64,000 nucleotides of DNA from Ornithinimicrobium humiphilum (lineage in GTDB: Bacteria > Actinomycetota > Actinomycetes > Actinomycetales > Dermatophilaceae): assembly GCF_006716885.1 (NCBI RefSeq), contig NZ_VFPU01000001.1:2728001-2792000 (forward strand). Reading direction: 5' to 3'. Every line of letters begins with the position of its first letter. Within the stretch, counting starts at the first letter, position 1. Under the pieces are notes generated by a model that was given only the letters and a program-made list of their open reading frames with translations, did no database searches and was not told the origin of the DNA. A program made the position numbers and the translations under genes. Shown one piece after another: positions 1,693 through 63,416 of this stretch.

Positions 1693-2465
1693 GCCGCCGC
1701 CGCCTGCAGCGCGTCGCCGGCCTGCACGCCGTAGCCGCCCCCGAAGAGCAGCGCGTGGACCAGCAACGGCACCGCCTGGTAGACCGGCAGGCGCTCGGCA
1801 TAGCCCTCCGCCAGGGGGAAGGCCTCGACGTAGGCGGCGTAGACCCGCCCGCTGAAGCCGCCGAAGAGCTGCATCATCGCCAGGTCCACCTCGCGGTGCC
1901 CCAGGTGTGCGCACGGGTCGATCAGCCAGCTGTCGCCGTGCGGGTCGAGGAGCCGGTTGCCGCCCCACAGGTCCCCGTGCACGAGGGTCGGAGGCTCGGC
2001 CGGCCCGAGCTGCTCGGGCGTGATCCGCTCCGCGAGCACCGCGGTCGCAGGGTCGAGACGCCCCTCGTCGGCCGCCCGCCGGGCGAGCGGCACGACCCGC
2101 CGCTCCACCCAGGACTCGTGCCAGCTGTCGCTCGGCGCCAGGTCGACCGGACAGGCGCCCAGGTATGCCGTGGGCTCGCCGTCCACCGCGCCCCACCGCT
2201 CCCCAGTGGTCCGGTGCAGCGCGGCGAGCTCGCGCCCGAAGCGGGCCTCGGTGGCGGGCGTGCGCTCGTGGCCCTGGCCGACCCACGCCAGCGTGATGCT
2301 CGTGCTGTCCACCGCGAGGACCTCCGGCACCCGGGCCCCGGCCGCGGCGAGCGCCCGCAGGCCCGCGGCCTCGCGCTCGAAGAACAGCGGCGGTGCACCG
2401 GCCAGCTCCTTGCGGAAGCCGGGCCGGCGGTCGTGCGTGGTGCGCGAGGGGGTACCGGTCGACAT
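1689..2465 (-). CDS. fructosamine kinase-family protein
   Basis: 258-residue protein of the fructosamine/ketosamine-3-kinase family, which phosphorylates sugar adducts on lysine so that they fall off (deglycation). Evidence: a GAPPLFFEREAAGL stretch after a conserved Lys (GFRK), the catalytic loop VHGDLWGGN (residues 162-170) and the metal-binding LIDPCAHLGHREVDLA (181-196). It is shorter at the N-terminus than the classical 290-residue enzymes, as in other actinobacterial members. It is the first gene of a two-gene unit with the downstream amidohydrolase. The start follows a -10-like hexamer by six bases, so the mRNA is probably leaderless. Confidence 0.85.
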   Translation of the reverse strand: MSTGTPSRTTHDRRPGFRKELAGAPPLFFEREAAGLRALAAAGARVPEVLAVDSTSITLAWVGQGHERTPATEARFGRELAALHRTTGERWGAVDGEPTAYLGACPVDLAPSDSWHESWVERRVVPLARRAADEGRLDPATAVLAERITPEQLGPAEPPTLVHGDLWGGNRLLDPHGDSWLIDPCAHLGHREVDLAMMQLFGGFSGRVYAAYVEAFPLAEGYAERLPVYQAVPLLVHALLFGGGYGVQAGDALQAAAA

Positions 2466-2471
2466 GCGGCC

Positions 2472-2477
2472 ATCCTG
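2472..2477 (-). promoter_or_regulatory. candidate -10 element, leaderless promoter
   Basis: CAGGAT on the minus strand ends six bases before the ATG of the fructosamine-kinase-like gene, so transcription would begin at or next to the start codon. There is no Shine-Dalgarno sequence and no clear -35. Confidence 0.4.
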
Positions 2478-2501
2478 TCAGGCCGGCGGGCGCCCGCCTG
2501 G

Positions 2502-2507
2502 GAGACT
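2502..2507 (+). promoter_or_regulatory. candidate -10 element, leaderless promoter
   Basis: GAGACT ends six bases before the ATG of the tyrosine phosphatase gene. It resembles the -10 hexamers before several other genes in the window. Confidence 0.4.
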
Positions 2508-2513
2508 GGGCCC

Positions 2514-6184: not shown

Positions 6185-7224
6185 GCGAGGCGCAGCAGCA
6201 GCGGCACCAGCAGGGCACTGCCTACGGCTTCCTCGCCTACCTGCTGTGGGGCGTCTTCCCCCTCTACTTCGCGATCCTGCGCCCCGCCGGGCCGTGGGAG
6301 ATCGTGGCCCACCGCATCGTGTGGACCCTCCTGCTCTGCGCGATCGTGCTCGTGGTCCTGCGCGACGTGCGCTGGGTCGTCGACCTGGCCCGCACGCCCC
6401 GCCGCGCGCTCGGCGTCGCGGGGGCCGGGCTGCTCATCGCCACCAACTGGGGCATCTACACCTATGCCGTGCTGTCCGGTCACGTGACCGAGGCCGCGCT
6501 CGGCTACTTCCTCAACCCGCTGGTCACGGTCGCCCTCGGCGTCCTCGTGCTGCGCGAGCGGCTGCGCCGCCCGCAGTGGGTGGCCGTCGGCCTGGGCGCG
6601 GCCGCGGCCGTCTACCTGACGATCGACTACGGCCGGCCGCCGTGGGTCTCCCTCGCGCTGGCCTTCACCTTCGCCAGCTACAGCCTGCTGAAGAACCGTC
6701 TGGGCATCACGCTCTCCGCGCTCCGCTCCCTCGCGGGCGAGTCGCTGGCGATCCTGCCGATCGCGGTCGTCATCCTCGTCTGGCTCGGCAGCCGCGGCGA
6801 GACGACCTTCCTGGGCGAGGGCACCGGCCATACCCTGCTGATGGTCAGCACGGGCGTCGCCACCGCCGTCCCCCTGCTGCTCTTCGCGGCCGCCGCCTCG
6901 CGCGTCCCCCTCTCGACCGTCGGGCTGCTGCAGTTCCTCACGCCCGTCCTCCAGCTGCTCATCGGCGTCGTGGTGATGGGCGAGCACGTGCCCGGCTCGC
7001 GCTGGATCGGTTTCGCCCTCGTGTGGCTCGCCCTCGTGATCCTCACCGTCGACATGCTCGGCGCGGCCGGCCGCAGCCGGCGCGACGGCAGGCGCGCCGC
7101 GGCCGCGGCCGCGGCTGAGGAGGCGGCGCAGGCGGAGACCGCGGCGCAGACGCCGGCCGAGGACGCGCCCCGCGACCCCGACGAGCTCGACGAGTCGCTC
7201 GGCCAGCAGCCCCGCTGCCCCTGA
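6181..7224 (+). CDS. rarD: RarD-family EamA permease
   Basis: 347-residue multi-pass membrane protein of the drug/metabolite transporter superfamily, RarD branch. The N-terminus GFLAYLLWGVFPLYF and the later LSGHVTEAALGYFLNPL are RarD signatures, and ten hydrophobic segments fit the family. The substrate is unknown. It starts with GTG overlapping the korB stop, so it is co-transcribed with korAB, although no functional link is obvious. The last 50 residues form an Ala/Glu-rich cytoplasmic tail not typical of RarD. Confidence 0.85.
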   Translation: MSEAQQQRHQQGTAYGFLAYLLWGVFPLYFAILRPAGPWEIVAHRIVWTLLLCAIVLVVLRDVRWVVDLARTPRRALGVAGAGLLIATNWGIYTYAVLSGHVTEAALGYFLNPLVTVALGVLVLRERLRRPQWVAVGLGAAAAVYLTIDYGRPPWVSLALAFTFASYSLLKNRLGITLSALRSLAGESLAILPIAVVILVWLGSRGETTFLGEGTGHTLLMVSTGVATAVPLLLFAAAASRVPLSTVGLLQFLTPVLQLLIGVVVMGEHVPGSRWIGFALVWLALVILTVDMLGAAGRSRRDGRRAAAAAAAEEAAQAETAAQTPAEDAPRDPDELDESLGQQPRCP

Positions 7225-9183: not shown

Positions 9184-12006
9184 GTGGCCACCCTCCTGCA
9201 CCGCCTGGGCCGCTGGTGCGCCCGGCACCCGTGGCGCGTCGTCGTCGCCTGGGCCGCGCTGCTCGCCCTGACGCTGACGGGCATGCTCACGCTCGCCAAG
9301 CCGCTGTCCAACGAGTTCTCCATCCCCGGCAGCCGGTTCGAGGCCGTGCTGGAGACCCTCCAGGAGGAGATCCCCGAGGCGGCCGGCACGACCGGCACGA
9401 TCGTCTTCTCCACCGACGCGCCGTTCACCGCGGAGCAGGAGGAGGCCGTCGCCGGGGCCGTCGAGCGCTGGAACGAGCTGCCCGACGTCACCGCCACCGA
9501 CCCCTTCGTCGCGCAGGCCGAGATCGACTCGACCGAGGACGACCTCGCCGACGGCCAGGCCGAGCTCGACGACGGGCGCGCCCAGCTGGAGCAGGGCGAG
9601 GCCGACCTCGAGGAGGCCCGCCAGCAGGTCGCCGACGGTCGGGAGCAGCTCGAGGCGGGCGAGGCCCAGCTCGAGGAGAGCCGGGCCCAGCTCGAGGCCG
9701 GCCGGACGCAGCTGGAGGCCGCCCAGGCCGACCTGGACGCGCAGCGCCAGCAGCTCGAGGCCGGGGCCGCCGCCGGGATGGTCCCGCCGGAGCAGGCCGC
9801 CGCCGCCCGTGCCCAGCTCGACGCCGGCCAGGCGCAGATCGACGCGCAGCGCCAGCAGCTCGAGGCCGGTGAGGCCGAGCTGGCCGCCGGCGAGGCGCAG
9901 CTGGAGGAGAGCCGCACCCAGCTCGAGGAGGCCGAGGCGCAGATCGCCGACGGCGAGCAGGAGCTCGCCGACGGTCGCACCGAGCTCGAGGAGGGCGAGG
10001 CCGCCGTCGCCGTCGGCCGCCGGATGGCCGACCTCACCGAGGGCTTCCGCCTCGTCAACGAGGACGCCACGGTCGCGATGACCCAGCTGTCCGTGCAGGA
10101 CGCCGGCGGCCTCATCCCGCCGGAGACCACCGAGGCGATCCAGCAGATCGGTGGCGAGCTGGTCGACGACGGCATCACCGTCACCTTCTCCAAGGAGATC
10201 ACCGACGACCTCAACAGCCTGCTCGGCCCCGGCGAGGTGCTCGGCCTGGTCTTCGCCGGCGTCGTGCTCATGGTCATGCTCGGCACCCTCGTGGCCGCGG
10301 GCCTTCCGCTCCTCATGGCGCTCGTCGGCGTGGGGGTCGGCCTCACCGGCGCCCTGGCGCTCTCGACGTGGGTGGACATGATGTCGATCACCCCGGTGCT
10401 GGCGCTGATGCTCGGTCTGGCGGTCGGCATCGACTACTCGCTCTTCCTCATCAACCGCCACCGCCAGCAGCTGCGCCGGGGCATGCCGGTGCGCGAGTCG
10501 ATCGCGCTCGCGGTCGGCACCTCCGGCAATGCGGTGACCTTCGCCGGCCTGACGGTGATCATCGCGCTCGCCGCGCTCACGCTCACCGGCATCCCTTTCC
10601 TCGGCGTCATGGGCCTGGTCGCGGCCGCGACCGTGGCGATCGCGGTGCTCGTCGCCATCACCCTGACCCCGGCCGCCCTCTCCCTCATGGGTGACAAGGT
10701 GCTGCCGCGCAAGGCCCGCGCCACGCTGGCCGAGACGCGCACGCGCCTCGCCGAGCGGGCCGCCGCCGACGAGCCCCACCACGAGCCCGAGGACACCACC
10801 AAGGGTTGGGCCGCGATCGTGCAGCGCCGTCCCTGGCTGGCCATCCTCGCCGTGCTGGCGCTGGTCGCCGGCCTGGGCTACCCGACCGGGCAGCTGCGCC
10901 TCGGCCTGCCCGACGGCAGCTCCGAGCCCGACGGCTCCTCGGCCTACCTCACCTACGACACCGTCCGCGAGGAGTTCGGCGCCGGCGCCAACGGCCCGAT
11001 CATCGCCGTGGCCGAGCTCGACGCCCCGGTGGCCGACGGCGAGACCGCGCTGCTCGAGGCGCAGGCCGACATCGCCGAGGACCTGGCGGCCGTCGACGGC
11101 GTCGTCCGAGTGCTGCCCGCCGGCGTCAACGACGACCGCGACGTGCTCGCCTTCCAGGTGCAGCCCGAGGGCGGCCCTGCGGAGGCCTCGACCGAGGACC
11201 TCGTGCACCGGCTCTCGGACACCGTCGAGCAGATCGGTGCCGACCACGGCGCGACGATCGGCATCACCGGCCAGACGGTCGCCAACATCGACATCTCGGG
11301 CCAGCTGGCCGACGCGCTGCCGATCTACCTCCTCGTGGTCGTGGGCCTCTCGCTCATCCTGCTGCTGCTGGTCTTCCGCTCGATCGTGATCCCGCTGCTG
11401 GCCACCGGTGGCTTCCTCCTCAGCGTGGTCGCGGCCTTCGGCGCCGTCGTCGCGGTCTACCAGCTGGGCCACCTGTCGCCGATCTTCGACGTGCACGAGC
11501 CCGGGCCGATCCTGTCGTTCCTGCCCATCCTGCTCATCGGCATCCTCTTCGGGCTGGCGATGGACTACCAGGTCTTCCTGGTCTCGGCGATGCGCGAGGA
11601 GCACGTGCACGGCACGGACGCCCGGACCGCGGTCGTCACCGGCTTCAACCACAGCGCGCGGGTCGTCACCGCGGCCGCGATCATCATGATCTCGGTGTTC
11701 GCCGGATTCGTCTGGGCACACCTGGCGATGGTCCGCCCGATCGGCATGGGCCTGGCGATCGGCGTGCTCGTCGACGCCTTCCTGGTCCGGATGACCCTGA
11801 CCCCGGCCGTGATGACGCTGCTCGGCGAGAAGGCCTGGTGGCTGCCGCGCTGGCTCGACAAGATCCTGCCTGACGTCGACGTGGAGGGCGCCAAGCTGGA
11901 GCGCACCGTCGCGGTGGCCCCGGCCACCGGCACCGTCGACGTCGACCCCGAGGCCCCCGAGGCGCCGGAGGCTCAGACCGAGCCGGAGGTCTCCCCCAGC
12001 CGCTGA
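9184..12006 (+). CDS. MMPL-family RND transporter with long coiled-coil domain
   Basis: 940-residue RND-superfamily transporter of the MMPL type, likely an exporter of lipids or hydrophobic drugs. Layout: TM1 at about 18-38; a large extracytoplasmic domain that includes a predicted coiled coil at about 120-280; the first TM bundle at about 350-505 (GLAVGIDYSLFLINRHR is the MMPL motif); a TM near 545; a second extracytoplasmic domain; and a final bundle with ILFGLAMDYQVFLVSAMREE. GTG start with AAAGGA seven bases upstream. The 3' end overlaps the convergent DUF1648 gene by 34 bases. The TetR gene upstream is the probable regulator. Confidence 0.9.
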   Translation: MATLLHRLGRWCARHPWRVVVAWAALLALTLTGMLTLAKPLSNEFSIPGSRFEAVLETLQEEIPEAAGTTGTIVFSTDAPFTAEQEEAVAGAVERWNELPDVTATDPFVAQAEIDSTEDDLADGQAELDDGRAQLEQGEADLEEARQQVADGREQLEAGEAQLEESRAQLEAGRTQLEAAQADLDAQRQQLEAGAAAGMVPPEQAAAARAQLDAGQAQIDAQRQQLEAGEAELAAGEAQLEESRTQLEEAEAQIADGEQELADGRTELEEGEAAVAVGRRMADLTEGFRLVNEDATVAMTQLSVQDAGGLIPPETTEAIQQIGGELVDDGITVTFSKEITDDLNSLLGPGEVLGLVFAGVVLMVMLGTLVAAGLPLLMALVGVGVGLTGALALSTWVDMMSITPVLALMLGLAVGIDYSLFLINRHRQQLRRGMPVRESIALAVGTSGNAVTFAGLTVIIALAALTLTGIPFLGVMGLVAAATVAIAVLVAITLTPAALSLMGDKVLPRKARATLAETRTRLAERAAADEPHHEPEDTTKGWAAIVQRRPWLAILAVLALVAGLGYPTGQLRLGLPDGSSEPDGSSAYLTYDTVREEFGAGANGPIIAVAELDAPVADGETALLEAQADIAEDLAAVDGVVRVLPAGVNDDRDVLAFQVQPEGGPAEASTEDLVHRLSDTVEQIGADHGATIGITGQTVANIDISGQLADALPIYLLVVVGLSLILLLLVFRSIVIPLLATGGFLLSVVAAFGAVVAVYQLGHLSPIFDVHEPGPILSFLPILLIGILFGLAMDYQVFLVSAMREEHVHGTDARTAVVTGFNHSARVVTAAAIIMISVFAGFVWAHLAMVRPIGMGLAIGVLVDAFLVRMTLTPAVMTLLGEKAWWLPRWLDKILPDVDVEGAKLERTVAVAPATGTVDVDPEAPEAPEAQTEPEVSPSR
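9736..9869 (+). repeat. 29-bp direct repeat within the MMPL coiled-coil region
   Basis: The same 29 bases occur at 9736-9764 and 9841-9869, in frame, encoding DAQRQQLEAG twice. They sit in a longer array of degenerate units of the form LEAGEAQLEESRAQ from about 9541 to 10010. The array probably grew by slippage or unequal recombination and predicts a long rod outside the membrane. Confidence 0.8.
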
Positions 12007-12974
12007 CCGGCGGCCTGGAGCAGCGTGCGGGCGCCGGCTCGCGCCGCGGCGTCACCCTCGGTGACCTGCAGCGCGAGCCGGCGCCCGTCGCGCTTCCACA
12101 CCACGATGCCGGGGCCGCCGTTGGCGATGTAGGCGGTCCGCTCCGGCAGCACGCGCAACCCGATCCCGCCCCAGGCCATCGGGTCGAGGTCGAGCACCTC
12201 GACACCCGCCACGTCCTCGGCGGCGATCCGGGTGAGGCGCACCGGCGCCACGCGCGAGCGCACCTGGAGGCCGTCGGCGTCGACCGACAGCCGCACCGCG
12301 GACCAGGAGAGCGCCAGCACGGCTGCGCCACCGACGGCGACCACCACGAGCGCGACGAAGGCCAGGCTCTCCCCCATCGTGACCATGAGCGTCACGACCG
12401 CCAGGAAGACGACGAGCATGCCCCAGCCGATCACCCGCAGCGTGGTCGAGGAGACCTCGGTGCTCCATGGCTCGACCGGCCCCACCGCCCGCCCGCGCAC
12501 CGGCTGCGTGCGGGCCCGGTCCGGGATCCGCTCCCGCAGCTCGGCGGCGGAGGGCACCCGGCGCCCGTGCACGGCATACGCCCCCGCCCCGCCGATGACG
12601 GCGGCGAGGAGGGCCAGCAGCACCCACGCCTCGTCGACGGCGTCCGGCCCGTCGAGCCGCGCCCGCCAGACCGTGACGACGTAGACGACCACGGCGCCCC
12701 AGCCCACGGCCGCACCCGCGGTGACGATCCAGCGCGACCAGGCCTGCGGCACGGCACGCTGCAGCACCGCCGTGGCGGCCGCCGCGATGGCGCTCAGGAC
12801 GGTCACCGTCAGCACTCCGGAGAGGAAGGACGGCCCCGCGGCCCAGGCGTCCGGACCGCCGCCGGACCAGTGGGTCGGCACCCGCGCGGGCGGGGGCAGC
12901 AGGACGACGACGACCAGGAGCACCGCGAGCGGTGCGATGGCGAGGAGCCCGGAGAGGGCGCGGCGGGGGTTCAT
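11973..12974 (-). CDS. DUF1648-type membrane protein
   Basis: 333-residue membrane protein of unknown function. An N-terminal TM is followed by VPTHWSGGGPDAW, the DUF1648 pattern. Further TMs lie at about 50-75, 85-105 and 115-135. After a cytoplasmic stretch two more TMs (about 205-250) precede a soluble C-terminal domain of PH-like look (RLSVDADGLQVRSR, VWKRDGRRLALQV). ATG at 12974 chosen as the start of the hydrophobic N-terminus; a longer in-frame extension lacks coding character. Its 3' end runs 34 bases into the convergent MMPL gene. Confidence 0.7.
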   Translation of the reverse strand: MNPRRALSGLLAIAPLAVLLVVVVLLPPPARVPTHWSGGGPDAWAAGPSFLSGVLTVTVLSAIAAAATAVLQRAVPQAWSRWIVTAGAAVGWGAVVVYVVTVWRARLDGPDAVDEAWVLLALLAAVIGGAGAYAVHGRRVPSAAELRERIPDRARTQPVRGRAVGPVEPWSTEVSSTTLRVIGWGMLVVFLAVVTLMVTMGESLAFVALVVVAVGGAAVLALSWSAVRLSVDADGLQVRSRVAPVRLTRIAAEDVAGVEVLDLDPMAWGGIGLRVLPERTAYIANGGPGIVVWKRDGRRLALQVTEGDAAARAGARTLLQAAGQRLGETSGSV

Positions 12975-13014: not shown

Positions 13015-13024
13015 GTATGCCGTG
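13015..13024 (+). repeat. GTATGCCGTG dispersed decamer, intergenic copy
   Basis: Exact copy in the 150-base divergent gap between the DUF1648 gene and the histidine kinase gene. Part of a window-wide family (see findings). Nothing else clear is seen in this gap apart from the kinase -10 element. Confidence 0.7.
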
Positions 13025-15316: not shown

Positions 15317-16199
15317 ACGTCCTGTCGTAGGGCGGGAAGCCGTCGGTGGGAGGCACCAGGAGGGCCGCCGGGTCGTCCAGCAGGCCCTGCAGCACCTCGG
15401 CGCTGCGCACCAGGTAGAAGCCGTCAGCCGCCCGCTCGTCGATGGTGTAGACCATGTCGACCCGACGCCGGGCGACGACGGCGCCGTTCTCGTCGACGAC
15501 GGGCTCGGGGCGGATGGTCCCGATGGACGCGAAGATGCTCGCGGTCCCCCGCTGGTAGAGGTGGTGGAAGGGCGCCTCGGCGCCCAGCGAGCCCAGGTTG
15601 ACCAGGTAGGAGCTGGTGTAGACCGGGATCGCCCCCTTGAGCTGCTGCGGGAGCAGGTCGACCGCGTCCAGGGCCCAGACCAGCCTGCCCACGCCGGCGA
15701 GCACCGGCCGCGGCAGCCGCACGAGCGCGTCGACCAGCTTGTCGCTCTCCTCGGCCTCCCCCGCCCGGGCGGACGACAGCGACCGGTCGACCATCCGGCG
15801 GACCTCGTCGACCGTCTCGGTGCCCGTGAAGACCATCTGCACCTGGGTGTCCTCGGCCTCGTCGGCCATGGCCCGCTTGACCGTGAACGAGAACGAGATG
15901 TCGCGGTGCTGGTAGGTCTGCCGCCGGTGGACGAAGCGGTTGAGCTCGGGCCGCAGCCGGAACAGCCGGGCGTAGGCCGTGAGGAAGACGTGGAAGAAGC
16001 GGAGCCGCTCCTCCGGTGCGCGACCGGCGTTGACCTCCTCGAGCCAGTCCATCAGCCGTTCGACGTCGAGGTGCTGGCGGTAGTAGACGGTCGACTCGAC
16101 GCGGGTCGGCATGAGGTGGGGCAGCACCACCCGCTCGGCGGCAAGGTCGCGCACCACGACCCCGTCCCGGCGGTCCCTGCCCCGGCCCAGCAACGCCAT
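15315..16199 (-). CDS. stand-alone 2-oxoacid dehydrogenase E2-like acyltransferase domain protein
   Basis: 294-residue protein made only of a chloramphenicol-acetyltransferase-fold domain like the catalytic core of dehydrogenase E2 subunits; no lipoyl or E1-binding domain. Family signs: VVLPHLMPTRVESTVYYRQ, RPELNRFVHRRQTYQHRDISFSF, SSYLVNLGSLG, FASIG, and a final DERAADGFY. In true E2 enzymes that last motif is HRxxDG; here Glu takes the catalytic His position while Asp-Gly is kept, so a different or lost chemistry is possible. Lies between doxX and a PAP2 phosphatase. Function unknown. Confidence 0.7.
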   Translation of the reverse strand: MALLGRGRDRRDGVVVRDLAAERVVLPHLMPTRVESTVYYRQHLDVERLMDWLEEVNAGRAPEERLRFFHVFLTAYARLFRLRPELNRFVHRRQTYQHRDISFSFTVKRAMADEAEDTQVQMVFTGTETVDEVRRMVDRSLSSARAGEAEESDKLVDALVRLPRPVLAGVGRLVWALDAVDLLPQQLKGAIPVYTSSYLVNLGSLGAEAPFHHLYQRGTASIFASIGTIRPEPVVDENGAVVARRRVDMVYTIDERAADGFYLVRSAEVLQGLLDDPAALLVPPTDGFPPYDRT

Positions 16200-17573: not shown

Positions 17574-18620
17574 TCAGCGGGAGCGCTCGGCGACACCGTC
17601 CACGAGCGCGCGCAGGGCGGCGACCGCGGGGCCGGGGTCGAGGGCGTCCAGCAGCACCCGGGCCTCGTCGGCGACGCGGGCCAGGTGCTGACGTGCCTGC
17701 CCCATGGCCGGGTGGGCCCGGAGCAGCTCCAGCGCCTCGGCGAGCTCCTCGGGGTCCTCGATCGGGCCACGGGTGAGCTCCTGCAGCCGCACGTCGGCCG
17801 GGTCGGTCGAGGTGCGGGCGTAGAGGACGGGCAGCGTGGCCTTGCCCTCGCGCAGGTCGGTGCCGGGGGTCTTGCCCGAGGTGTCGGAGTCGACGTCGAG
17901 CAGGTCGTCCGCGAGCTGGAAGACGACGCCCAGGCGCTCGCCGTACTCGGTGAGCGTCCGCACGGTCGCCGGGTCGCAGCCGCCGAACATCGCGCCGTAG
18001 CGCGCCGAGGTCGCGATGAGCGCGCCGGTCTTGTCCGCGAGGATCTGCAGGTATGCCGTGACCGCGGCCGGGTCGTGCGCGTCACCGGCGAGGGCGGCGC
18101 CCTCCGGGGCGGGGTCGGTCGTCTGGCGGTCGTCGCGGATCTGACCGGCGCACAGCCGCACGAAGGTCTCGGCCTGGATGCGGACCGCCTCGGCGCCCAG
18201 CCCCGCGACCACCGAGGAGGCGGTGCCGAAGAGCAGGTCGCCGACGAGGATCGCGGTGGCGTTGCCGTAGCGGGCATTGGCGCTCTGCACGCCGCGGCGC
18301 AGGTCGGCCTCGTCCATGACGTCGTCGTGGTAGAGCGACGCCAGGTGCGTCAGCTCCACCCCGACGGCCGCGTCGACGACGCGCTCGTCCCAGCCGTTGC
18401 CGACCTCGCTCGCGAGCAGGGTCAGCAGCGGCCGGAACCGCTTGCCGCCGGCCGCGGCCAGGTGGCCGGCGGCCTCGGCGACGAAGGGGTCGTCGTGGTC
18501 GACGACCTCGCGCAGGCGGGTGTCGACCGCGGCCATGCCCGCCGCGACGCGAGCCGTGAGGGCCTCGTCGACCCCCGGGAGGGAGCCGACGGCCACGGCG
18601 GGGCTGACCGGGGCGGTCAC
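17574..18620 (-). CDS. polyprenyl diphosphate synthase (menaquinone side chain)
   Basis: 348-residue long-chain trans-prenyl transferase. The first Asp-rich motif HDDVMDEADLRRG (DDVMD at 99-103) and the second FQLADDLLDVDSD, plus GGKRFRP, are diagnostic. Position directly after nuoN, coupled by a GTGA overlap, is the common actinobacterial order and points to making the hepta- to nonaprenyl tail of menaquinone. Chain length cannot be read reliably from sequence. Confidence 0.92.
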   Translation of the reverse strand: MTAPVSPAVAVGSLPGVDEALTARVAAGMAAVDTRLREVVDHDDPFVAEAAGHLAAAGGKRFRPLLTLLASEVGNGWDERVVDAAVGVELTHLASLYHDDVMDEADLRRGVQSANARYGNATAILVGDLLFGTASSVVAGLGAEAVRIQAETFVRLCAGQIRDDRQTTDPAPEGAALAGDAHDPAAVTAYLQILADKTGALIATSARYGAMFGGCDPATVRTLTEYGERLGVVFQLADDLLDVDSDTSGKTPGTDLREGKATLPVLYARTSTDPADVRLQELTRGPIEDPEELAEALELLRAHPAMGQARQHLARVADEARVLLDALDPGPAVAALRALVDGVAERSR

Positions 18621-42959: not shown

Positions 42960-42965
42960 GGCCCG

Positions 42966-44267
42966 GTGAGCGACGACCCGACGATGACCGACCTGACACC
43001 CCAGGACTACCCGCGCATCCAGGAGCTGGAGGACCTGGTCTGGTTCGAGACGGTGCCCGGCCAGGTGCCGGACGACCTGCGCGACCACCTCGACCTGCGC
43101 CACGCCCGTGCGATCGAGCGCTCCGGCGACCCGCTGCCGGGCGAGGCGGCCGGGGACCGGCCCCCGCTGATCGGGATCTACAGCGCCTACGACATGGCGG
43201 TCACCGTCCCGGGTCCGTCGGGCAGCCTCACGCGGGTCCCGATGGACGGCCTGACCTGGGTCGGCATCCACCCCGACCACCGGCGCCGCGGCCTGCTCAC
43301 CCGGATGATGAAGGACCACCTGCACCGGGTGCACGACCGCGGCGAGTGCGCGGTCGCGGGCCTGCACGCCTCCGAGGCCGGGATCTACGGCCGCTTCGGC
43401 TACGGCTGCGCGACGCTCGACGTCGCGCTGACGCTGGGCCGTGGCACGCAGCTGCGCGCCCCGGCGGCGGTCGCCGTGGCCGCCGACGACGTGCAGGTGC
43501 ACCTCGTCACGCTGCCGACCCCGGAGGGGACGACCGCCCTGCACGAGGCGCACCTGGCGAGCGCCGCCTCGACGCTGGGCGCGGTCACGCGGCCCGACGC
43601 CATGGCCACCTCCTGGTGGCGCGACTATCCGAAGGCCCGTGGCTCGAAGGAGCCGCGACGCCTCCTGCTCGCCCGCCGCGACGGGCACCTCACGGGCTAT
43701 GCCGCCTTCCGGCGCGAGAGCAAGTGGCAGGACGAGATGCCCCAGGGCACGGTCCAGGTCGCCGAGCTGGGCGCGTCCGACTCCCCCACGCTGCTGGCCC
43801 TGGCGCGCCGGCTCGTGAACTTCGACCTCACCGGCAAGGTCGTGCTGTGGAACCGCTCGGTCGACGACCCGCTGCTGTGGTGGGCCGGCGGCCCGCGACC
43901 GTCGGGGGTCAAGGTCCACGACTCGCTGTGGCTGCGGCTCGTGGACCTGCCCCGGGCGCTGACCGAGCGCGGCTACGCCCAGGCCTGCGACCTCGTCGTC
44001 GAGGTCGAGGACGAGGTCTGCCCGTGGAACGCCGGCCGCTGGCGCCTCACGGTCGGCGAGGACGGCACCGCGAGCTGCACCGCCACGCAGGACGAGCCCG
44101 ACCTGACGGTGCCCGTCGCCGTGCTCGGCGCGGCCTACGCCGGCGGGCGCCCCGTCGCGGCGCTGCTCCCGGCGCTGGGTGGCACCGAGCACACGCCCGG
44201 CGCGGTCCGCCGGCTGTCGCGGACGATGCTGGCCGACACCGCGCCCTACGGGGCGATCGGCTTCTAG
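42966..44267 (+). CDS. Eis-like GNAT acetyltransferase
   Basis: 433-residue protein with the three-part Eis layout: an N-terminal GNAT domain with WVGIHPDHRRRGLLTRMM as acetyl-CoA loop (about 98-115), a second degenerate GNAT domain, and a C-terminal SCP2-like domain ending in Phe whose carboxylate acts as base in Eis. Eis enzymes acetylate amines, including aminoglycosides and host proteins in mycobacteria; in this environmental-looking genome the substrate is open. Its TAG stop lies in a CTAG shared with the convergent RidA gene. Confidence 0.85.
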   Translation: MSDDPTMTDLTPQDYPRIQELEDLVWFETVPGQVPDDLRDHLDLRHARAIERSGDPLPGEAAGDRPPLIGIYSAYDMAVTVPGPSGSLTRVPMDGLTWVGIHPDHRRRGLLTRMMKDHLHRVHDRGECAVAGLHASEAGIYGRFGYGCATLDVALTLGRGTQLRAPAAVAVAADDVQVHLVTLPTPEGTTALHEAHLASAASTLGAVTRPDAMATSWWRDYPKARGSKEPRRLLLARRDGHLTGYAAFRRESKWQDEMPQGTVQVAELGASDSPTLLALARRLVNFDLTGKVVLWNRSVDDPLLWWAGGPRPSGVKVHDSLWLRLVDLPRALTERGYAQACDLVVEVEDEVCPWNAGRWRLTVGEDGTASCTATQDEPDLTVPVAVLGAAYAGGRPVAALLPALGGTEHTPGAVRRLSRTMLADTAPYGAIGF

Positions 44268-52401: not shown

Positions 52402-52498
52402 GTCAGTCCTGGTCGTCGGGGACGGGGGTCGCGCGGATGACGCGTCACCGACACGGTATGCGGTGCCCAGCCGGTTCGGCGGCACCGGGGCCGCGTCG

Positions 52499-53500: not shown

Positions 53501-55282
53501 ACCGGACGGGCGACGGGGGCCGTCGTGAGGAGGACCGGCGTGGACGGTGGATCGGGCGGTCCCCGGCCCCGGGAGCGTGATCCCCAGTCGCGGCTCGTGG
53601 CGGCCCTGGCCGTGGCGCTGGCCTGCTTCGCCCTCTGGCGGGTCCGGCAGGGGGTCGACCACGGCGACGGTGCCCACGTCGTGGCCCAGGCGGTGCGGAT
53701 GGCGCGCGGCGCGACGCCCTTCGTGGACGAGATGAACGCCCAGGCGCTGGGCGCCCTGCTCGCGGTGCCGTTCACCTGGGTCTGGCTGCAGGTCGTCGGC
53801 CTCGAGGGGATCGTGCTGGCGTCCCGGGTCTGGTACCTCGCCCTGGCGTTCTCCGCGGGAGCCCTCTGCTACCGGGCGCTGAGGACCGGCCTGCGACCCC
53901 TGCCGGCCCTCGCCGGCGCGGTGCTGGCGTGCACGCCCACGGCCTACAACCTCCTGGTCACCAGCTACAACACGGTGCCGGGGCTGGCTCTCGCGGTCGC
54001 CACCTTCGCCGGGTGGGCGGCCCTCACCCGGCCGAGCGGCCGGTGGGCGGCCGTCGGCGGTCTGGCGCTCGCGCTCGCCGTGCTCTCCCACCCCGCCTCC
54101 CTGCCCGCGGCGGCCGTGCTGGGTCTCGTCCTCCTGGTGCTGGCCCGGCACCGGGCCGGCGTCGTCCGGGGGCTGCTCCTCGGGGGCGGCGGGCTCTCGC
54201 TCCTGGTCCTCGTCTGGGTCGTGGCAGGCCCGGGCCTCGGCGCGCTCCTGGAGACGCTGTCCTACACCGCCGACTACCAGGCGGGGCGTCCGCACCCGCT
54301 CGACCGGGTGCAGGACACCACGGGCCGCCTCGTCCGGGCCCTGGTCGCACCGGCGACGTGGCCGGCGATCTGCCTGGCCGCGCTCGCCGCCCTGCCGCCC
54401 CTCCCCGACCGAGCTCGGGGCGCCGCGCTGGCCCTCGTGCCGGTCGCCATGGCGCTCCCCGCCCTGCTCTCGCTCCCGACGGAGGGGCAGCCGGTCGTCG
54501 GCGCGACGAGCGGCACCTACGCAATCCTGCTGTGCGCTCTCCTGCTGCTCCCCGTCGCGCTGTCCGCCCGGCAGGAACCCGTGCTGCGCCTGCTGCTCCT
54601 CGTGGCGGGGCCGACCGCGGTGGTGGGGCTCCTCACCTATGCCGCGACCACCTCGTCCTCGGCCCGGTGGGGGGCGGTGGTCCCGCCAGTCGTGCCCCTC
54701 CTCGGGGTGCTGGGGGTCGGCGTGGTGCTGCTGTGCGCCCGACGCGGGGTGGCGCCCGGGATCGCCGTCGCCTGCCTGCTGCTCCCGCTGCTCGGGGTCC
54801 AGAGCCTGCACGCCTTCCGGGACCCGGCGCCGTGGGTGGCGCACGTCCGGATCCCGGAGGGCCCCAACGCCGGGCTGCGGACCACGCCCGGTCGCGCGGC
54901 GGAGGACTGCGGCTTCCGCACCGCCGCGGCCTCCTGGATCGCTCCGGGCGAGAGCGTCCTGGCCTACGCCGGACCGGCCGTCTACCTCTACACGGACGGG
55001 CCCGCCGCGACCAACATCGTCTGGCTCGCGGGCTTCGGGAAGGCCAACCGGACCACGGTCGAGCGGCTCGACGAGCAGGGCGCCTGGCCCGACGTCGTCA
55101 CCGTCCTGGCGTCGGTCGCCCGGGCGTGGGACGAGCACGCGGCGGACGACCCCCTCCTCCGACGGCTGGAGCGCGACTACGGGGAGCCGGTGCCCGCCGG
55201 GCCGTTCTGGGTGCTGCGCCGCGACGGGACGACGACCCCGCCGGGCGGCGAGCCCGACCTCGCCGCCTGCGGCCTCTCCTGA
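53495..55282 (+). CDS. multi-pass membrane protein, GT-C glycosyltransferase-like
   Basis: 595-residue protein with about 11 hydrophobic segments and a soluble C-terminal domain of about 130 residues. An early loop after TM1 (VDHGDGAHVVAQAVRMARGATPFVDEMNAQ, here given by its ends) contains acidic residues followed by a conserved-looking Pro/Phe-Asp-Glu, as in polyprenol-dependent GT-C enzymes. No specific family recognised. Divergent from an LPG-synthase-like membrane protein, suggesting envelope glycolipid work. Confidence 0.6.
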   Translation: MLTGRATGAVVRRTGVDGGSGGPRPRERDPQSRLVAALAVALACFALWRVRQGVDHGDGAHVVAQAVRMARGATPFVDEMNAQALGALLAVPFTWVWLQVVGLEGIVLASRVWYLALAFSAGALCYRALRTGLRPLPALAGAVLACTPTAYNLLVTSYNTVPGLALAVATFAGWAALTRPSGRWAAVGGLALALAVLSHPASLPAAAVLGLVLLVLARHRAGVVRGLLLGGGGLSLLVLVWVVAGPGLGALLETLSYTADYQAGRPHPLDRVQDTTGRLVRALVAPATWPAICLAALAALPPLPDRARGAALALVPVAMALPALLSLPTEGQPVVGATSGTYAILLCALLLLPVALSARQEPVLRLLLLVAGPTAVVGLLTYAATTSSSARWGAVVPPVVPLLGVLGVGVVLLCARRGVAPGIAVACLLLPLLGVQSLHAFRDPAPWVAHVRIPEGPNAGLRTTPGRAAEDCGFRTAAASWIAPGESVLAYAGPAVYLYTDGPAATNIVWLAGFGKANRTTVERLDEQGAWPDVVTVLASVARAWDEHAADDPLLRRLERDYGEPVPAGPFWVLRRDGTTTPPGGEPDLAACGLS

Positions 55283-56290: not shown

Positions 56291-56871
56291 TCACCGCGGT
56301 GCCAGGAGGCGCTCCAGCCCCGCCGCCAGGGCGGCGATCGGCGGCGGCACCCGGTCGGGCGGCAGTGCCTGCGCCATCTCCCGCGCCAGCCGGATCTTGC
56401 GGCCGCTCGCGACCCCGGCGAAGCGGTGCAGCTGCTCCTCCACCGGCCGCCCGGCCCAGGCACGCTGCCCGCCGAAGGCCCGGAAGCCCTCCCCCAGACC
56501 GATCCGCTCCAGCAGGTCGAGGCACCCGGGCACGCCGAGGGCCCTGATCAGCTCGTCCTCGAGGTCGCGACGGCACACGAAGAAGCCGTGCTCCGGCAGG
56601 TCGTCCACGTCGACCACCGGCACCCCCGACCGCGCAGCGCCCGCACCACCACCCGGGCCTCCCCCGCGTCGCACAGGCCCACCACCCGGGACCCGGGCGC
56701 GGCCTCCGCGAGCTCGCGCAGCGCCCGCGCCGTGTTCGTCACCCCGCCCAGGTCCACCAGCCGGTATGCCGTGCCCGGCACGGCGGGTGCGCAGCGCGGC
56801 AGCAGCACCTCGAGGGCGGCGACGTCGCTCGGCCCCTCGAGGAGCACGTGCACGGGCGTCCCGGTGTCCAT
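56291..56871 (-). pseudogene. TOPRIM-domain (OLD-like) nuclease, broken by a one-base frameshift
   Basis: Two frames together give one protein of about 193 residues. The first (from ATG 56871) reads VHVLLEGPSDVAALEVLL, then LCDAGEARVVVRAL, the TOPRIM Glu and Asp motifs. The second, from about 56634, reads SGVPVVDVDDLPEHGFFVCRRDLEDELIRALG and a conserved C-terminus (VEEQLHRFAGVASGRKIRLA). One base appears missing after the CTG codon near 56635. Whole pieces match the small actinobacterial TOPRIM family. Could be a real pseudogene or an assembly error. Divergent from XPB. Confidence 0.75.
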
Positions 56872-56965
56872 GGCCTCCCCATCGTGCCGTCGTCGGCCGG
56901 CGCCGGCCACCCGGTTCCGGCGGAAGGGCGGAATGCCGGGGGCGCGGCATACCGTTGACCCCACG

Positions 56966-58633
56966 ATGAACGGCCCCCTGATCGTCCAGTCCGACAAGAC
57001 CCTGCTCCTCGAGGTCGACCACCCCGACGCCGAGGTGGCGCGCCGCGACATCGCGCCGTTCGCCGAGCTGGAGCGTGCCCCCGAGCACATCCACACCTAC
57101 CGCGTCACGCCCCTCGGGCTGTGGAACGCCCGCGCCGCCGGCCACGACGCCGAGCAGGTCGTGCACGCCCTGATCACCCACAGCCGCTACCCGGTGCCGC
57201 AGGCGCTGCTCGTCGACGTCGCCGACACGATGGCGCGCTACGGCCGTCTCACGCTCGACAAGGACGAGGAGCACGGGCTGGTCCTGCGCGCGAGCGACCG
57301 GGCCGTGCTCACCGAGGTGCTGCGGCACAAGAAGATCAAGCCCCTCATCGGTGACCGGATCGACGACGACACCGTCGCGGTCCACCCCTCCGAGCGGGGC
57401 CACCTCAAGCAGGAGCTGCTCAAGGTCGGCTGGCCGGCGGAGGACCTCGCGGGCTACGTCGACGGCGAGGCGCACCCGATCGCGCTCGACACCTCCGAGG
57501 GCGACTGGTCGCTGCGGCCCTACCAGCAGCAGGCCGTCGACGGCTTCTGGGACGGCGGCTCGGGCGTCGTCGTCCTCCCCTGCGGCGCGGGCAAGACGCT
57601 GGTCGGCGCGGGCGCCATGGCGCGCAGCTCGACGACGACGCTCATCCTCGTCACCAACACGGTCTCGGCCCGCCAGTGGCGCGACGAGCTGCTGCGGCGC
57701 ACGACGCTGACCGAGGACGAGATCGGCGAGTACTCCGGCGCCCGCAAGGAGGTCCGCCCGGTCACCATCGCGACCTACCAGGTGCTGACGACCAAGCGGA
57801 AGGGCGTCTTCCCGCACCTGGACCTGCTCGACGCCCGTGACTGGGGCCTCGTGGTCTACGACGAGGTGCACCTGCTGCCGGCGCCGATCTTCCGGATGAC
57901 CGCCGACCTCCAGGCACGGCGCCGCCTCGGCCTGACCGCGACCCTGGTGCGCGAGGACGGCCGCGAGTCCGACGTCTTCTCCCTCATCGGGCCCAAGCGC
58001 TACGACGCCCCGTGGAAGGACATCGAGGCGCAGGGCTACATCGCCCCCGCCGACTGCGTCGAGGTGCGGGTGACGCTGCCGGAGTCGATGCGGATGGCGT
58101 ATGCCGTCGCCGAGCCCGAGGAGCGCTACCGCTTCGCCGCCTGCGCGCCCGCCAAGGACGACGTGGTGCGGGCCCTCGTGGCACGGCACCGCGGCGAGCC
58201 GACGCTGATCATCGGGCAGTACCTCGACCAGCTCGGCCAGCTCGCCGAGGCGCTCGACGCCCCGCTCATCACCGGCGAGACCTCGGTCAAGCAGCGCCAG
58301 GAGCTCTTCCGGCAGTTCCGCGAGGGCGAGATCGACCTGCTCGTCGTGAGCAAGGTCGCCAACTTCTCCATCGACCTGCCCGAGGCCTCGGTCGCGATCC
58401 AGGTGTCGGGCACCTTCGGATCGCGCCAGGAGGAGGCCCAGCGGCTGGGGCGCGTGCTGCGCCCCAAGGGTGACGGCCGGACCGCGCACTTCTACACCAC
58501 GGTCGCGCGCGACACGGTCGACGCGGAGTTCGCGGCGCACCGCCAGCGCTTCCTCGCCGAGCAGGGCTACGCCTACCGCATCGTCGACGCCGAGGACCTC
58601 GGCTCGCTCGACGCGACGTCGGGCGCCGGCTGA
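56966..58633 (+). CDS. XPB-like DNA repair helicase
   Basis: 555-residue superfamily 2 helicase of the bacterial XPB group. An N-terminal DNA-damage-recognition-like domain (about 1-175) precedes Walker A VLPCGAGKTLVG (about 203-214), DEVH at 299-302, GLTATLVREDG, SKVANFSIDLPEA and QRLGRVLRPKG (motif VI). It unwinds 3'-5' in vitro in known relatives. The probable partner, a helicase-associated protein, is at 48106-50379 rather than adjacent. ATG at 56966 is 10 bases after TACCGT, which overlaps a decamer variant. Confidence 0.93.
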   Translation: MNGPLIVQSDKTLLLEVDHPDAEVARRDIAPFAELERAPEHIHTYRVTPLGLWNARAAGHDAEQVVHALITHSRYPVPQALLVDVADTMARYGRLTLDKDEEHGLVLRASDRAVLTEVLRHKKIKPLIGDRIDDDTVAVHPSERGHLKQELLKVGWPAEDLAGYVDGEAHPIALDTSEGDWSLRPYQQQAVDGFWDGGSGVVVLPCGAGKTLVGAGAMARSSTTTLILVTNTVSARQWRDELLRRTTLTEDEIGEYSGARKEVRPVTIATYQVLTTKRKGVFPHLDLLDARDWGLVVYDEVHLLPAPIFRMTADLQARRRLGLTATLVREDGRESDVFSLIGPKRYDAPWKDIEAQGYIAPADCVEVRVTLPESMRMAYAVAEPEERYRFAACAPAKDDVVRALVARHRGEPTLIIGQYLDQLGQLAEALDAPLITGETSVKQRQELFRQFREGEIDLLVVSKVANFSIDLPEASVAIQVSGTFGSRQEEAQRLGRVLRPKGDGRTAHFYTTVARDTVDAEFAAHRQRFLAEQGYAYRIVDAEDLGSLDATSGAG

Positions 58634-59344: not shown

Positions 59345-59400
59345 GGGGTATGCCGTCCTCGCTCCCCGTGCGGCACCGCCCGGAACCGTCGCGCGGCGGG

Positions 59401-60006: not shown

Positions 60007-60483
60007 TCAGACCCGGGCGGCCCGCAGCGCCACGGCGGTCGCGAGGGCGGCCGTGGCCGCCTCGTGGCCCTTGTCCTCGGAGGACCCGGGCAGGCCCGCC
60101 CTGTCGAGCGCCTGCTGCTCGTCGTCGCAGGTCAGCACGCCGAAACCCACCGGGACGCCGGTCTCGACGGACACCCTCGTCAGACCGTCGGTGGCCGCGC
60201 TGCAGACGTAGTCGAAGTGCGGCGTGCCACCCCGGACCACGACACCGAGGGCGACGAGGGCGTCGAAGCGGCTGCTGCGGGCCAGACGGGCGCACGCGAC
60301 CGGCAGCTCGAAGCTTCCGGGCACCCGGACCACGGGGACGTCGGCCACCCCCGCCTCCTCCAGTGCCCGGCGGGCGCCGTCGAGCAGCCCGTCCATCACC
60401 CGCTCGTGCCAGGACGCGGCGACGACGGCGACGTGCAGGCCCGACCCGGCGACGGTCAGGGTGGGTGCTCCGGCCTTGCTCAT
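60007..60483 (-). CDS. ribH: 6,7-dimethyl-8-ribityllumazine synthase
   Basis: 158-residue lumazine synthase, condensing the pyrimidine from RibD with the butanone phosphate from Rib[55 protein letters not shown] (catalytic His) and [18 protein letters not shown] are standard. Last gene of the rib operon, ATG overlapping the ribBA stop by four bases. Confidence 0.96.
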
Positions 60484-61709
60484 GCGATGGTCCTCCTCGG
60501 GGTGGTGGGGACGGCGTGGGGCGCGTGCCCCAGCCGCTCGGTCTTGGTCCGCAGGTAGGCCCACGCCTCCGGCGGGGGCGTGGTGGCCGACGGCTCGCGC
60601 GCGGCGACGGTCAGCCCGAGCCGGGTGAGCGCGGCCACCTTGTCGGGGTTGTGGGTCAGCAGGCGCAGCGGGCGGTCGGCGAGCCCCAGGTCGCGCAGCA
60701 CGGCGGCCCCGGCGGCGTAGTCGCGGGCGTCGACGGGCAGCCCCAGCGCCTCCTGCGCCTCGACGGTGTCGAGGCCGGTGTCCTGGGCGGCGTAGGCGCG
60801 CAGCTTGTCCACCAGCCCCACCCCCCGGCCCTCGTGCCCGCGCAGGTAGACGACGACGCCGCCCTCCGTGGCGACCCGGCGGAGGGCGTCGTCCAGCTGG
60901 GGCCCGCAGTCGCAGCGGCGCGACCCGAGGGCCTCGCCCGTGAGGCACTCCGAGTGCAGACGCACGAGCGGGCGGGGCCCGGGGTCGGGGCGCCCGACCA
61001 GGGCCAGGTGCTCTACGCCGGTGACCAGGTCGCGGTAGGCGTGCACGACCAGCTCGCCGGCGTCGGTGGGCAGCGTCGTCGTGGCCTCCCGCCGCACCGT
61101 GCCGGTCTCGAGCCGGTGGGCGACGAGGTCGGCGATGGTGATGACCGGGAGGTCGTGCTCGGCGCCGAGGGCGACCACCTGCGGCCCGCGCAGCATCTCT
61201 CCCTCGTCGTCCACCAGCTCGGCGATCGCCGCGACGGGCGCCAGCCCGGCGAGCCGGCAGAGGTCGACGGCGGCCTCGGTGTGGCCGCGCCGGACCAGCA
61301 CCCCGCCGTCGCGGGCGCGCAGCGGGACGACGTGACCGGGGCGGCGCAGGTCGGCCGCGGTGGTGACCGGGTCGGCCAGTGCGCGCAGGGTCGTGGCCCG
61401 GTCGGAGGCGCTGATGCCGGTGCTCACACCGGCCGCGGCGTCCACCGTCACCGTGTATGCCGTGCGCAGCAGGTCCTCGTTGTGCTCCACCATGAGCGGC
61501 AGCTCGAGGCGGTCCGCCAGCTCGCCCGTCAGCGGCGCGCAGACGTAGCCGGAGGTGTGGCGCACCGTCCACCCCATCCAGGCCGGCGTGAGCGTCTCCG
61601 CGGCGAGCACGACGTCGCCCTCGTTCTCGCGGTCGGCGTCGTCGAGGACGAGCACCGGCCGCCCGGCGCGCAGTGCCTCGAGCGCCTCGGGGACGGTCGC
61701 GAGGGCCAT
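60480..61709 (-). CDS. ribBA: bifunctional DHBP synthase / GTP cyclohydrolase II
   Basis: 409-residue fusion feeding both branches of riboflavin synthesis. N-terminal Rib[18 protein letters not shown] and [24 protein letters not shown]-terminal RibA from about residue 205: zinc ligands in [20 protein letters not shown] and the loop [15 protein letters not shown] at 61709 shares one base with the ribE stop. Confidence 0.95.
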
Positions 61710-62344
61710 CACCCCTCCCTCCGCCCGATGGCGACGGTCTCCGGCACGAGCCCGTCGGCGAGCATCGACTCGACGTACTTCGCCAGCACGTCCACCTCGA
61801 CGTTGACCTCCTCCCCCGGCCGCCGCCTCCCCAGCGTCGTCAGCGCCAGGGTGGTCGGGATGAGGCTGACCGCGAAGGTCTCGTCGGTCCGACCGGAGAC
61901 GGTGAGGGAGACGCCGTCGAGGGCGACCGAGCCCTTGAGCACGACGTAGCGGCGCAGCGTGGGCGGCAGCGCGAAGGTCACGACCTCCCACCGCTCCCCC
62001 GGCTCGCGGGAGAGCACGGTCGTCGTCCCGTCGACGTGACCCTGGACGACGTGGCCGCCCAGCCGGCCGTCGGCGCGGAGGGCGCGCTCGAGGTTGACGG
62101 GGTCGCCGGGCCGCAGCCGGCCGAGCGTGGTGCGGGCCAGCGTCTCGGCCATGACGTCGGCCGTGAAGCCCTGGGGACTGCTGCCGGTGACGGTCAGGCA
62201 GACCCCGTCTACGGCGATCGATTCGCCGTGCCGCGCGTCGGCGGCGACCGTGGGGGCGTGCACCTCCAGCACGCAGGAGTCGCCGTCCGACCCGTCGGTG
62301 CGGGCGGTCAGGGTGCCGAGCTCTTCGACGATGCCGGTGAACAT
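61709..62344 (-). CDS. ribE: riboflavin synthase alpha chain
   Basis: 211-residue riboflavin synthase made of two lumazine-binding repeats: [12 protein letters not shown] with GVCLTVTG, then [11 protein letters not shown] with [15 protein letters not shown]. Makes riboflavin from two lumazines. ATG four bases after the ribD stop. Confidence 0.95.
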
Positions 62345-62348
62345 GGGG

Positions 62349-63416
62349 TCAGTCCTCCTGGAGGGAGCGGGTGGTGGTGGGAAGCAGGGAGGCCGGGCCG
62401 GGCTCCGAGGCGGCGCCGGCGGGGACCAGGCGCAGCCGGACGTCGGGCCCGACGCGCGCCACGTCGACGAGGCGCAGCCGGGGTGCGTCGGCGAGGGTGC
62501 CGACGCCGAGGTCGGGGACGGCCGGGGCGCCGCTCCCGAGCAGCACGGGCGCGACGTAGGACAGGACCTCGTCGACGCAGCCGGCGGCCCAGAAGGCGCC
62601 GGCCAGGGTGGGCCCGCCCTCCAGGAGCACGGTGCGCGCACCGTGCTCCACCAGCACACGCAGCACCTCCCGGGGGTCGTGCGTGCGCAGGTGCAGCACC
62701 GGGGACGGGCCGCCACGGAGGCGGGCGCCGGCGGGAAGCTCGCGACGCCCGACCACCACGCGCAGCGGCTGGGTGGCCAGCTCGTGCCCCTCCGGCGTGC
62801 GGGCGGTCAGGGCGGGATCGTCCGCGAGGGCGGTGCCGGTGCCGACGACGATCGCGTCGACCCGGGCACGCAGGGCGTGGGCGTCGGCGCGGGACTCGGG
62901 CGAGGAGATCCAGCGGCTGGTCCCGTCGGCCGCGGCGACCCTGCCGTCGAGGGAGCCCGCGATCTTCCAGGTCACGTGGGGGCGGCCCAGCGCGGCGGCC
63001 CGGGCCCAGTCGGCGACGAGGGCGTAGGAGGCGGCGTGCGGGTGCTGCTCGACGGCCACCCCGGCTCTCGTCAGCCGGGCGGCACCCCCGGTGGCGGACG
63101 CGGTCGGCTCGGGCACGGCATACACGACCGCGGCGACGCCCGCCTCGAGGAGGGCCTGCGTGCAGGGCGGCGTCCGGCCGTGGTGCGCGCACGGCTCGAG
63201 GGTCACGTAGGCGGTGGCGCCCCGGGCCCGCCCGCCGGCCGCGGCGATCGCGGCGACCTCGGCGTGCGGGGTGCCCGCGCCGCGGTGGTGACCCTCCCCG
63301 ACGATCTCGCCGTCGGGGGCGACCAGGACGCACCCGACGCGAGGGTTGCGGTCGCGGGCCGGGCCCAGGCGGGCGCGGGCGACCGCTCGGTCCAGGTAGT
63401 GGTCGGTGCTCGTCAC
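62349..63416 (-). CDS. ribD: bifunctional riboflavin deaminase/reductase
   Basis: 355-residue fusion. The N-terminal deaminase has the zinc motifs GTPHAEVAAI and TLEPCAHHGRTPPC; the C-terminal reductase has WKIAGSLDGRVAAADGTSRWI and LLEGGPTLAGAF. First gene of the operon, behind an FMN riboswitch and a 125-base spacer. GTG start; the ribosome site GGAGGAGACG directly precedes it. A GTATGCCGTG decamer lies inside at 63114, minus orientation, encoding VYAV. Confidence 0.95.
   Translation of the reverse strand: MTSTDHYLDRAVARARLGPARDRNPRVGCVLVAPDGEIVGEGHHRGAGTPHAEVAAIAAAGGRARGATAYVTLEPCAHHGRTPPCTQALLEAGVAAVVYAVPEPTASATGGAARLTRAGVAVEQHPHAASYALVADWARAAALGRPHVTWKIAGSLDGRVAAADGTSRWISSPESRADAHALRARVDAIVVGTGTALADDPALTARTPEGHELATQPLRVVVGRRELPAGARLRGGPSPVLHLRTHDPREVLRVLVEHGARTVLLEGGPTLAGAFWAAGCVDEVLSYVAPVLLGSGAPAVPDLGVGTLADAPRLRLVDVARVGPDVRLRLVPAGAASEPGPASLLPTTTRSLQED

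Follow-up and report, generated by a model that had tools for sequence, protein, structure and literature searches.

Only two families, the Neisseriaceae and the Pasteurellaceae, are named in the available text of PMC12616744 as known to discriminate at uptake by means of 9–12 nucleotide motifs enriched in their genomes. The DNA uptake sequence (DUS) of the Neisseriaceae occurs in eight dialects and forms many inverted pairs at terminators; exact and one-mismatch copies stand at 1:1.15 and 1:1.45 in Neisseria (PMC3630211, in its accessible part). Transformation of Micrococcus luteus requires two tad clusters together with ComEA/EC, and the accessible part of that paper does not use the term 'uptake sequence' (PMC4322843). 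Here we describe a decamer, GTATGCCGTG, noticed in a 64,000-nucleotide stretch of the genome of Ornithinimicrobium humiphilum (C1:2728001-2792000, the whole of which is called the window below; the genome comprises 3,437,881 bases in five contigs). It occurs throughout the genome, its over-representation is real, and selection or drive acts on it as DNA; the best explanation, which we consider probable, is that it is a self tag resembling a DNA uptake sequence. Like the Neisseriaceae DUS, it is an asymmetric word of 10–12 bases that is present on both strands and numbers hundreds to thousands of copies (PMC3630211, in part). It also resembles the Pasteurellaceae uptake signal sequence (USS) in being short, asymmetric and enriched in the genome, with variants apparently specific to the family (PMC12616744, in part).

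The whole genome contains 407 copies of GTATGCCGTG, 195 on the plus and 212 on the minus strand, a density of one per 8.4 kb, while the same letters in reverse order occur 0 and 0 times. Within the window there are 11 exact copies, compared with a mean of 0.05 and a largest value of 1 in 100 dinucleotide shuffles, and 20 sites within one mismatch, compared with an expected 2.62 and a largest shuffle of 8. Under a third-order Markov model, too, no other 10-mer in the window is as over-represented as the word (11 against 0.05). It remains the top 10-mer, with 59 copies against 0.36 expected, in a 453-kb sample made up of the window and 20 further stretches of the same genome, on which the following details of its form are based. 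Longer forms deviate more strongly, with 28 copies of GGGTATGCCGTG against 0.03 expected, and because these are more extreme than the 10-mer, the fuller form is approximately GGGTATGCCGTGC, around a core of GTATGCCG. Single-base variants of the decamer are absent at positions 5 and 8 and most frequent at positions 6, 9 and 10. Summed over the variant table, one-mismatch copies total 85 against about 13 expected, or 1.44 per exact copy; the resulting ratio of 1:1.44 lies within the range of 1:1.15 to 1:1.45 given for Neisseria in the accessible text of PMC3630211. The flanks have nothing clear in common past about two bases on each side, and a mobile element as the source of the word is ruled out, since the copies do not share their flanks. 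Nor was a helically spaced flanking motif seen within 30 bases, which, together with the unrelated sequence, distinguishes the word from the USS.

The relation of the word to genes was analysed in 853 kb of the genome, where a purpose-written gene-calling script gave 780 genes and a coding fraction of 89.7%. Of 110 copies, 80 lie within genes, 28 are intergenic and 2 are at gene edges; the intergenic excess that the original prediction had seen in the window thus holds at this scale, given that about 10% of the DNA is non-coding. When synonymous codons were shuffled within genes, the mean was 3.5 copies and the largest of 200 shuffles gave 9, as against the 80 observed, which rules out a codon-pair artefact. 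The coding copies are divided almost equally between sense (41) and antisense (39), and an RNA-level motif is ruled out by this parity. In 66 of the 80, the word is read in a single frame for each orientation, giving Tyr-Ala-Val or Thr-Ala-Tyr. The codons it uses are indeed rare, as had been claimed, TAT making up 5.4% of Tyr codons and GCA 3.1% of Ala codons in the called genes. Nevertheless, TAT GCC GTG encodes 43 of the 89 Tyr-Ala-Val tripeptides and ACG GCA TAC 31 of the 74 Thr-Ala-Tyr tripeptides. In a first-order model of 3,690 tripeptides, Thr-Ala-Tyr ranks second and Tyr-Ala-Val 32nd for over-representation. The codon shuffles, the two orientations and the intergenic excess strongly support the earlier proposal that selection or drive acts on the DNA word itself.

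The 8:3 orientation bias of the window, which had been taken to suit a polar signal, is local. Genome-wide the strands are represented 195:212. The initial 1.47 Mb of contig 1 gives 83:100, and the most uneven 200-kb bin along this stretch is 6:17. The strand counts are thus without clear polarity, and they speak against a polar signal of the type of the FtsK-orienting polar sequences (KOPS). Chi and KOPS sites are oriented with replication, KOPS strongly so from the origin to dif; the word resembles them in being short, abundant and non-palindromic, but it is not so oriented. In the same 1.47 Mb the gaps between copies look exponential and the positions uniform (Kolmogorov–Smirnov p 0.16). 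Head-to-head pairs within 60 bp number three there, against about 0.3 expected by our own arithmetic, and tail-to-tail pairs within 60 bp are absent from this region. A further head-to-head pair, at L063:11832-11880, forms a perfect 17-bp stem with a 3-base loop (-41 kcal/mol); this hairpin sits between two tandem genes, in the manner of a terminator hairpin. Word density increases with the GC content of 5-kb intervals: the lowest-GC tenth has 0.059 copies per kb and the highest quarter 0.205, a rise that fits scarcity of the word in foreign DNA and is no proof of it.

By comparison of ComEC, species of Ornithinimicrobium are the best named relatives, with best segments of 55–68% identity (the nearest records were possibly excluded), and the next are what we take to be other members of the GTDB Dermatophilaceae, formerly Intrasporangiaceae and kin. 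The core GTATGCCG was counted on both strands of 40 named genomes, with its reversal as control. Core and control counts were 1758/29 in O. tianjinense, 1637/221 in O. cavernae, 1692/112 in O. sp. F0845 and 841/12 in O. sp. CNJ-824. The core was also enriched in Intrasporangium oryzae (2765/357), Arsenicicoccus bolidensis (1660/578), a Phycicoccus metagenome-assembled genome (1025/101), Terrabacter (2300/237), Knoellia remsis (3277/276), Phycicoccus elongatus (2614/80) and Tetrasphaera (2311/150). There was little or none in Janibacter indicus (18/12), Phycicoccus 4-1443 (35/7) and Dermacoccus abyssi (46/28), and the remaining 26 genomes were at most about 3-fold over control. Taking at least 40 exact decamers to define a word-rich genome, 82 of 149 genomes of the family and 30 of the 53 genera sampled qualify, and 77 of the 82 have at least five times the control count. 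Five genera are mixed, one of them having genomes with 163, 1 and 615 copies. A sample of the order included 202 genomes from 19 other families, in which the core was at no more than about 4-fold over control, compared with about 50-fold in O. humiphilum; of the 16 family members that it also contained, 7 were likewise unenriched. Within the limits of this sampling, the word is confined to a single family. Within the genus, 24 kb could be aligned with a congener (G133) at 77.6% identity; of 5 core sites in O. humiphilum and 15 in the congener, 2 and 2 respectively were intact in the other genome. The neutral expectation for survival of the core is 13% (0.776 raised to the eighth power), about the level observed, so that in this small sample the sites seem to be replaced and not individually maintained.

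Stretches totalling 40 to 100 kb from each of 14 word-poor genomes were searched for words of their own, using Markov and codon-shuffle expectations. The two stronger related words in genera without GTATGCCG are GTATGCCGCTG and GGATGCCG. In genome G015 the word is CGTATGCCGCTG, and the 10-mer GTATGCCGCT occurs 24 times against 0.08 expected from the Markov model, and 9 times in genes against 0.1 from the codon shuffle. In G026, GGATGCCG is the top coding 8-mer after codon shuffling, with 68 copies against 11.7. The same ranking gave GTACGCCG in G040 (67 against 17.3) and G023 (35 against 10.1), and CGATGCGG in G057 (71 against 18.4); in G069, GTACGGCG ranks second (52 against 16.1). Because generic words too exceed codon shuffles 2- to 3-fold, words enriched only 3- to 4-fold are tentative. 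Relative to GTATGCCG, the related top words have one to three changes or an altered tail. They look as dialects of one recognition system would, with G015 and G026 as the strong cases. Other repeated words were also seen in these genomes. The palindrome CGCCGTACGGCG is over-represented in word-poor G069 (L106-L110), with 18 occurrences over both strands, or 9 places, against 0.46. Overlapping 12-mers at 6–7 copies per 100 kb, around GCTCTTCACGAACGAGGGTGTA in G057 (L121-L125) and around GGTCTCGATACG and CTGGTCGAGTAG in G040 (L116-L120), point to dispersed repeats of a separate kind or to the ends of insertion sequences.

The genome of O. humiphilum carries the genes that DNA uptake might be expected to use. 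There is a ComEC, with a ComEA having SLBB and helix-hairpin-helix domains immediately upstream, as well as DprA, two A24 prepilin peptidases and eight T2SSF domains. One tad cluster (L269) includes a Flp-like pilin of 64 residues with a G/XXXXEY-type site, a second (L045) includes small TadE-like pilins, and a third (L270) has a TadA-type ATPase; the Flp, TadF and TadG labels are our own, and the two TadE Pfam matches fall below the curated cut-off. The small TadE/Flp-like pilins are a candidate class of receptor. In having two or more tad clusters with ComEA/ComEC, the genome carries the gene set required by M. luteus, whose transformation depends on Flp/tad functions (PMC4322843, in part). 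Among the genomes in which these genes were counted, 6 of the 7 with no more than two T2SSF domains were word-poor, compared with 22 of the 53 others (Fisher one-sided p 0.034; the threshold was picked after this set had been seen, and the sole exception is an 81%-complete genome). In a held-out set of 80 of the 89 remaining family genomes, the corresponding figures were 5 of 5 and 30 of 75 (p 0.014), although most of the held-out genomes with few T2SSF domains belong to genera of the first set and the statistics ignore kinship throughout. This hints that loss of a tad cluster goes with loss of the word.

We infer competence, sequence-specific uptake and the identity of the reader from these data, and the self tag would then work as follows. 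The surface apparatus of a competent cell, presumably made up, like that of M. luteus, of a tad/Flp-type pilus, ComEA and ComEC, would bind or import DNA carrying the word better than untagged DNA. Tagged fragments would recombine into genomes more often than untagged ones, and as they entered more often the tag would accumulate at permissive sites on both strands. It would turn over between species, and a change in the reader protein would let it drift into dialects. We count in favour of an uptake tag the enrichment, the lack of polarity, the exponential gaps, the codon and frame imprint, the intergenic excess and the parity of sense and antisense copies. Counted with these are the turnover, the restriction to a family, the related words, the head-to-head pairs, the com/tad genes, the one-mismatch ratio and the trend for genomes with few T2SSF domains to be word-poor. 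Further parallels with the Neisseriaceae DUS are apparent genus dialects differing by a few bases, copies at permissive or intergenic sites and some inverted pairs (PMC3630211, in part). The string ATGCCGT is found in both the word and the Neisseriaceae DUS, which is probably a coincidence. Of the interpretations offered in the original prediction, the uptake-like signal fits best, while the polar signal is not supported by the strand counts and a modification site alone would not explain the enrichment.

A number of observations weigh against an uptake tag. The genes ComEC (58 of 60 genomes), T2SSF (62 of 63) and the A24 peptidase (61 of 63) are present in word-rich and word-poor genomes alike, which rules them out as discriminating genes; being nearly universal in the family, the com/tad genes permit the word but do not explain it. 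No match to an A24 peptidase was found in G026, despite its strong related word, nor to ComEC in word-rich G033 and G034, both of which are fragmented assemblies. Among word-poor genomes, 22 of 28 in the first set and 30 of 35 in the held-out set had at least three T2SSF domains. No clear related word emerged in 8 of the 14 word-poor genomes sampled (G001, G002, G010, G014, G024, G041, G045 and G061), in three of which (G002, G014 and G041) the training of gene models by our script was weak. PilM, found in 2 of 60 genomes, rules out the type IV pilus as the discriminating feature, and the setting is not the type IV pilus one of Neisseria or Haemophilus. The word is also less dense than the Neisseria DUS (407 copies in 3.44 Mb compared with about 1900 in 2.2–2.3 Mb), and inverted pairs are few here but many in Neisseria (PMC3630211, in part). 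The host differs from the Neisseriaceae in being Gram-positive with about 74% GC, and no ComP-like receptor is known.

It is unlikely, in our judgement, that the word is instead a chromosome-handling site, read within the cell by a nucleoid, segregation or condensin-type protein, with weak selection keeping scattered copies; this nucleoid or segregation interpretation had also been put forward originally and is less favoured now. The enrichment, the occurrence on both strands and the presence of the word at every contig end sampled would suit such a site, and a family-specific binding protein would suit the lineage restriction. However, there is no polarity or regular spacing, positions are hardly retained between congeners and some genera have almost no copies. 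In addition, the different words of sister genera mean that hundreds of sites would have to change along with the protein.

It appears improbable that the word is a recombination signal resembling Chi, with RecBCD or a helicase-nuclease of the AdnAB type as its reader. The word is non-palindromic and frequent, a link to recombination is inherent in the proposal, and RecC is present in O. humiphilum. But RecC does not track the word: 11 of the 30 word-rich genomes have it, as do 14 of the 28 word-poor ones, and it is absent from G007 and G022, each with more than 800 copies, so that a RecBCD Chi is not supported. There is no strand bias, and the 10–12 specified bases exceed the length of known Chi sites, which are shorter. 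RecC is patchy in the family as a whole, occurring in 25 of 58 genomes and 17 of 45 genera.

We regard as similarly improbable some drive or repair bias that would let the word multiply with no part played by uptake, as a parallel to the highly iterated palindrome HIP1, an unexplained repeat of cyanobacteria. The signature of such a bias at the DNA level would be the same, and no reader of the word is known. HIP1 is palindromic, however, and the word is not self-complementary; moreover, an asymmetric word of 10–12 bases, enriched more than 100-fold and with a choice of frame, is not readily produced in this way.

That the word is abundant by accident, owing to the usage of codon pairs, a motif common to many proteins or a repeat that is mobile, is very improbable indeed: some of the weaker sister-genus words (e.g. 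GTACGCCG) do include preferred Tyr-Ala codons, and generic words also stand 2- to 3-fold above codon shuffles, but the codon-shuffle and Markov expectations for the word are more than tenfold too low, common flanks end at about two bases and intergenic copies are in excess.

Within the window, all 11 exact copies lie at the coordinates and on the strands originally reported. Three on the plus strand are antisense within minus-strand genes and are read as Thr-Ala-Tyr: 2163–2172 (gene 1689–2465), 18051–18060 (gene 17574–18620) and 61455–61464 (gene 60480–61709). Those read in sense, as Tyr-Ala-Val, are at 12570–12579 (minus; gene 11973–12974, minus), 20033–20042 (minus; a nuo-type Proton_antipo_M gene, 18617–20161, minus), 41473–41482 (plus; gene 41195–41704, plus) and 63114–63123 (minus; gene 62349–63416, minus). 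Plus-strand copies are intergenic between divergent genes at 13015–13024 and 56764–56773, and between tandem genes at 36477–36486. The copy at 42907–42916 (plus) is also intergenic by our own gene calls, whereas the list of open reading frames (ORFs) has one beginning at 42909; the ATG at 42909, inside the word, could be the start codon of this acetyltransferase-domain ORF (42909–44267). The intergenic location of some copies is upheld, but the number was given as three where our calls give four, the difference hinging on that start codon.

The six near copies described earlier were all recovered among the one-mismatch sites, one of them, listed at 56944, beginning at 56943. The core GTATGCCG is intact in four: GTATGCCGTC at 28103–28112 (minus), 58099–58108 (plus) and 59348–59357 (plus), and GTATGCCGCG at 56943–56952 (minus). 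The others are CTATGCCGTG at 6462–6471 and GTATGCGGTG at 52456–52465, both on the plus strand. Three more one-mismatch copies, which may have arisen by chance, are GTAGGCCGTG at 15972–15981 (plus) and 53938–53947 (minus), and GTCTGCCGTG at 46014–46023 (minus). The palindrome GCCGTCGACGGC is also over-represented in the window, with 10 occurrences over both strands, or 5 places, against 0.82 from the third-order Markov model.

Literature searches with the word or its 9-mers gave only unrelated titles among the matches listed, and those for uptake sequences in actinobacteria or Gram-positives gave no relevant title among the matches listed; subscription papers and bioRxiv preprints are thinly covered there, so a prior report is possible. 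Returning to the uptake tag, we see the chances as evenly balanced for the wider proposal that the Dermatophilaceae evolved self-tagged transformation with dialects independently of the Neisseriaceae and Pasteurellaceae, and that in their single-membrane cells the tag is read by a receptor belonging to the tad/Flp pilus or on the ComEA side. If this is true, sequence-specific DNA uptake would extend beyond outer-membrane bacteria with type IV pili, and the Dermatophilaceae would be the third family, and the first Gram-positive one, with an uptake tag, self-tagged bacterial sex having arisen again. The 30 word-rich genera among the 53 sampled, with their apparent dialects, would lend themselves, as a natural set for comparison, to the search for the reader protein. 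The word would also predict which members of the family are naturally transformable, and tagged DNA would offer a practical route by which to try transforming them.

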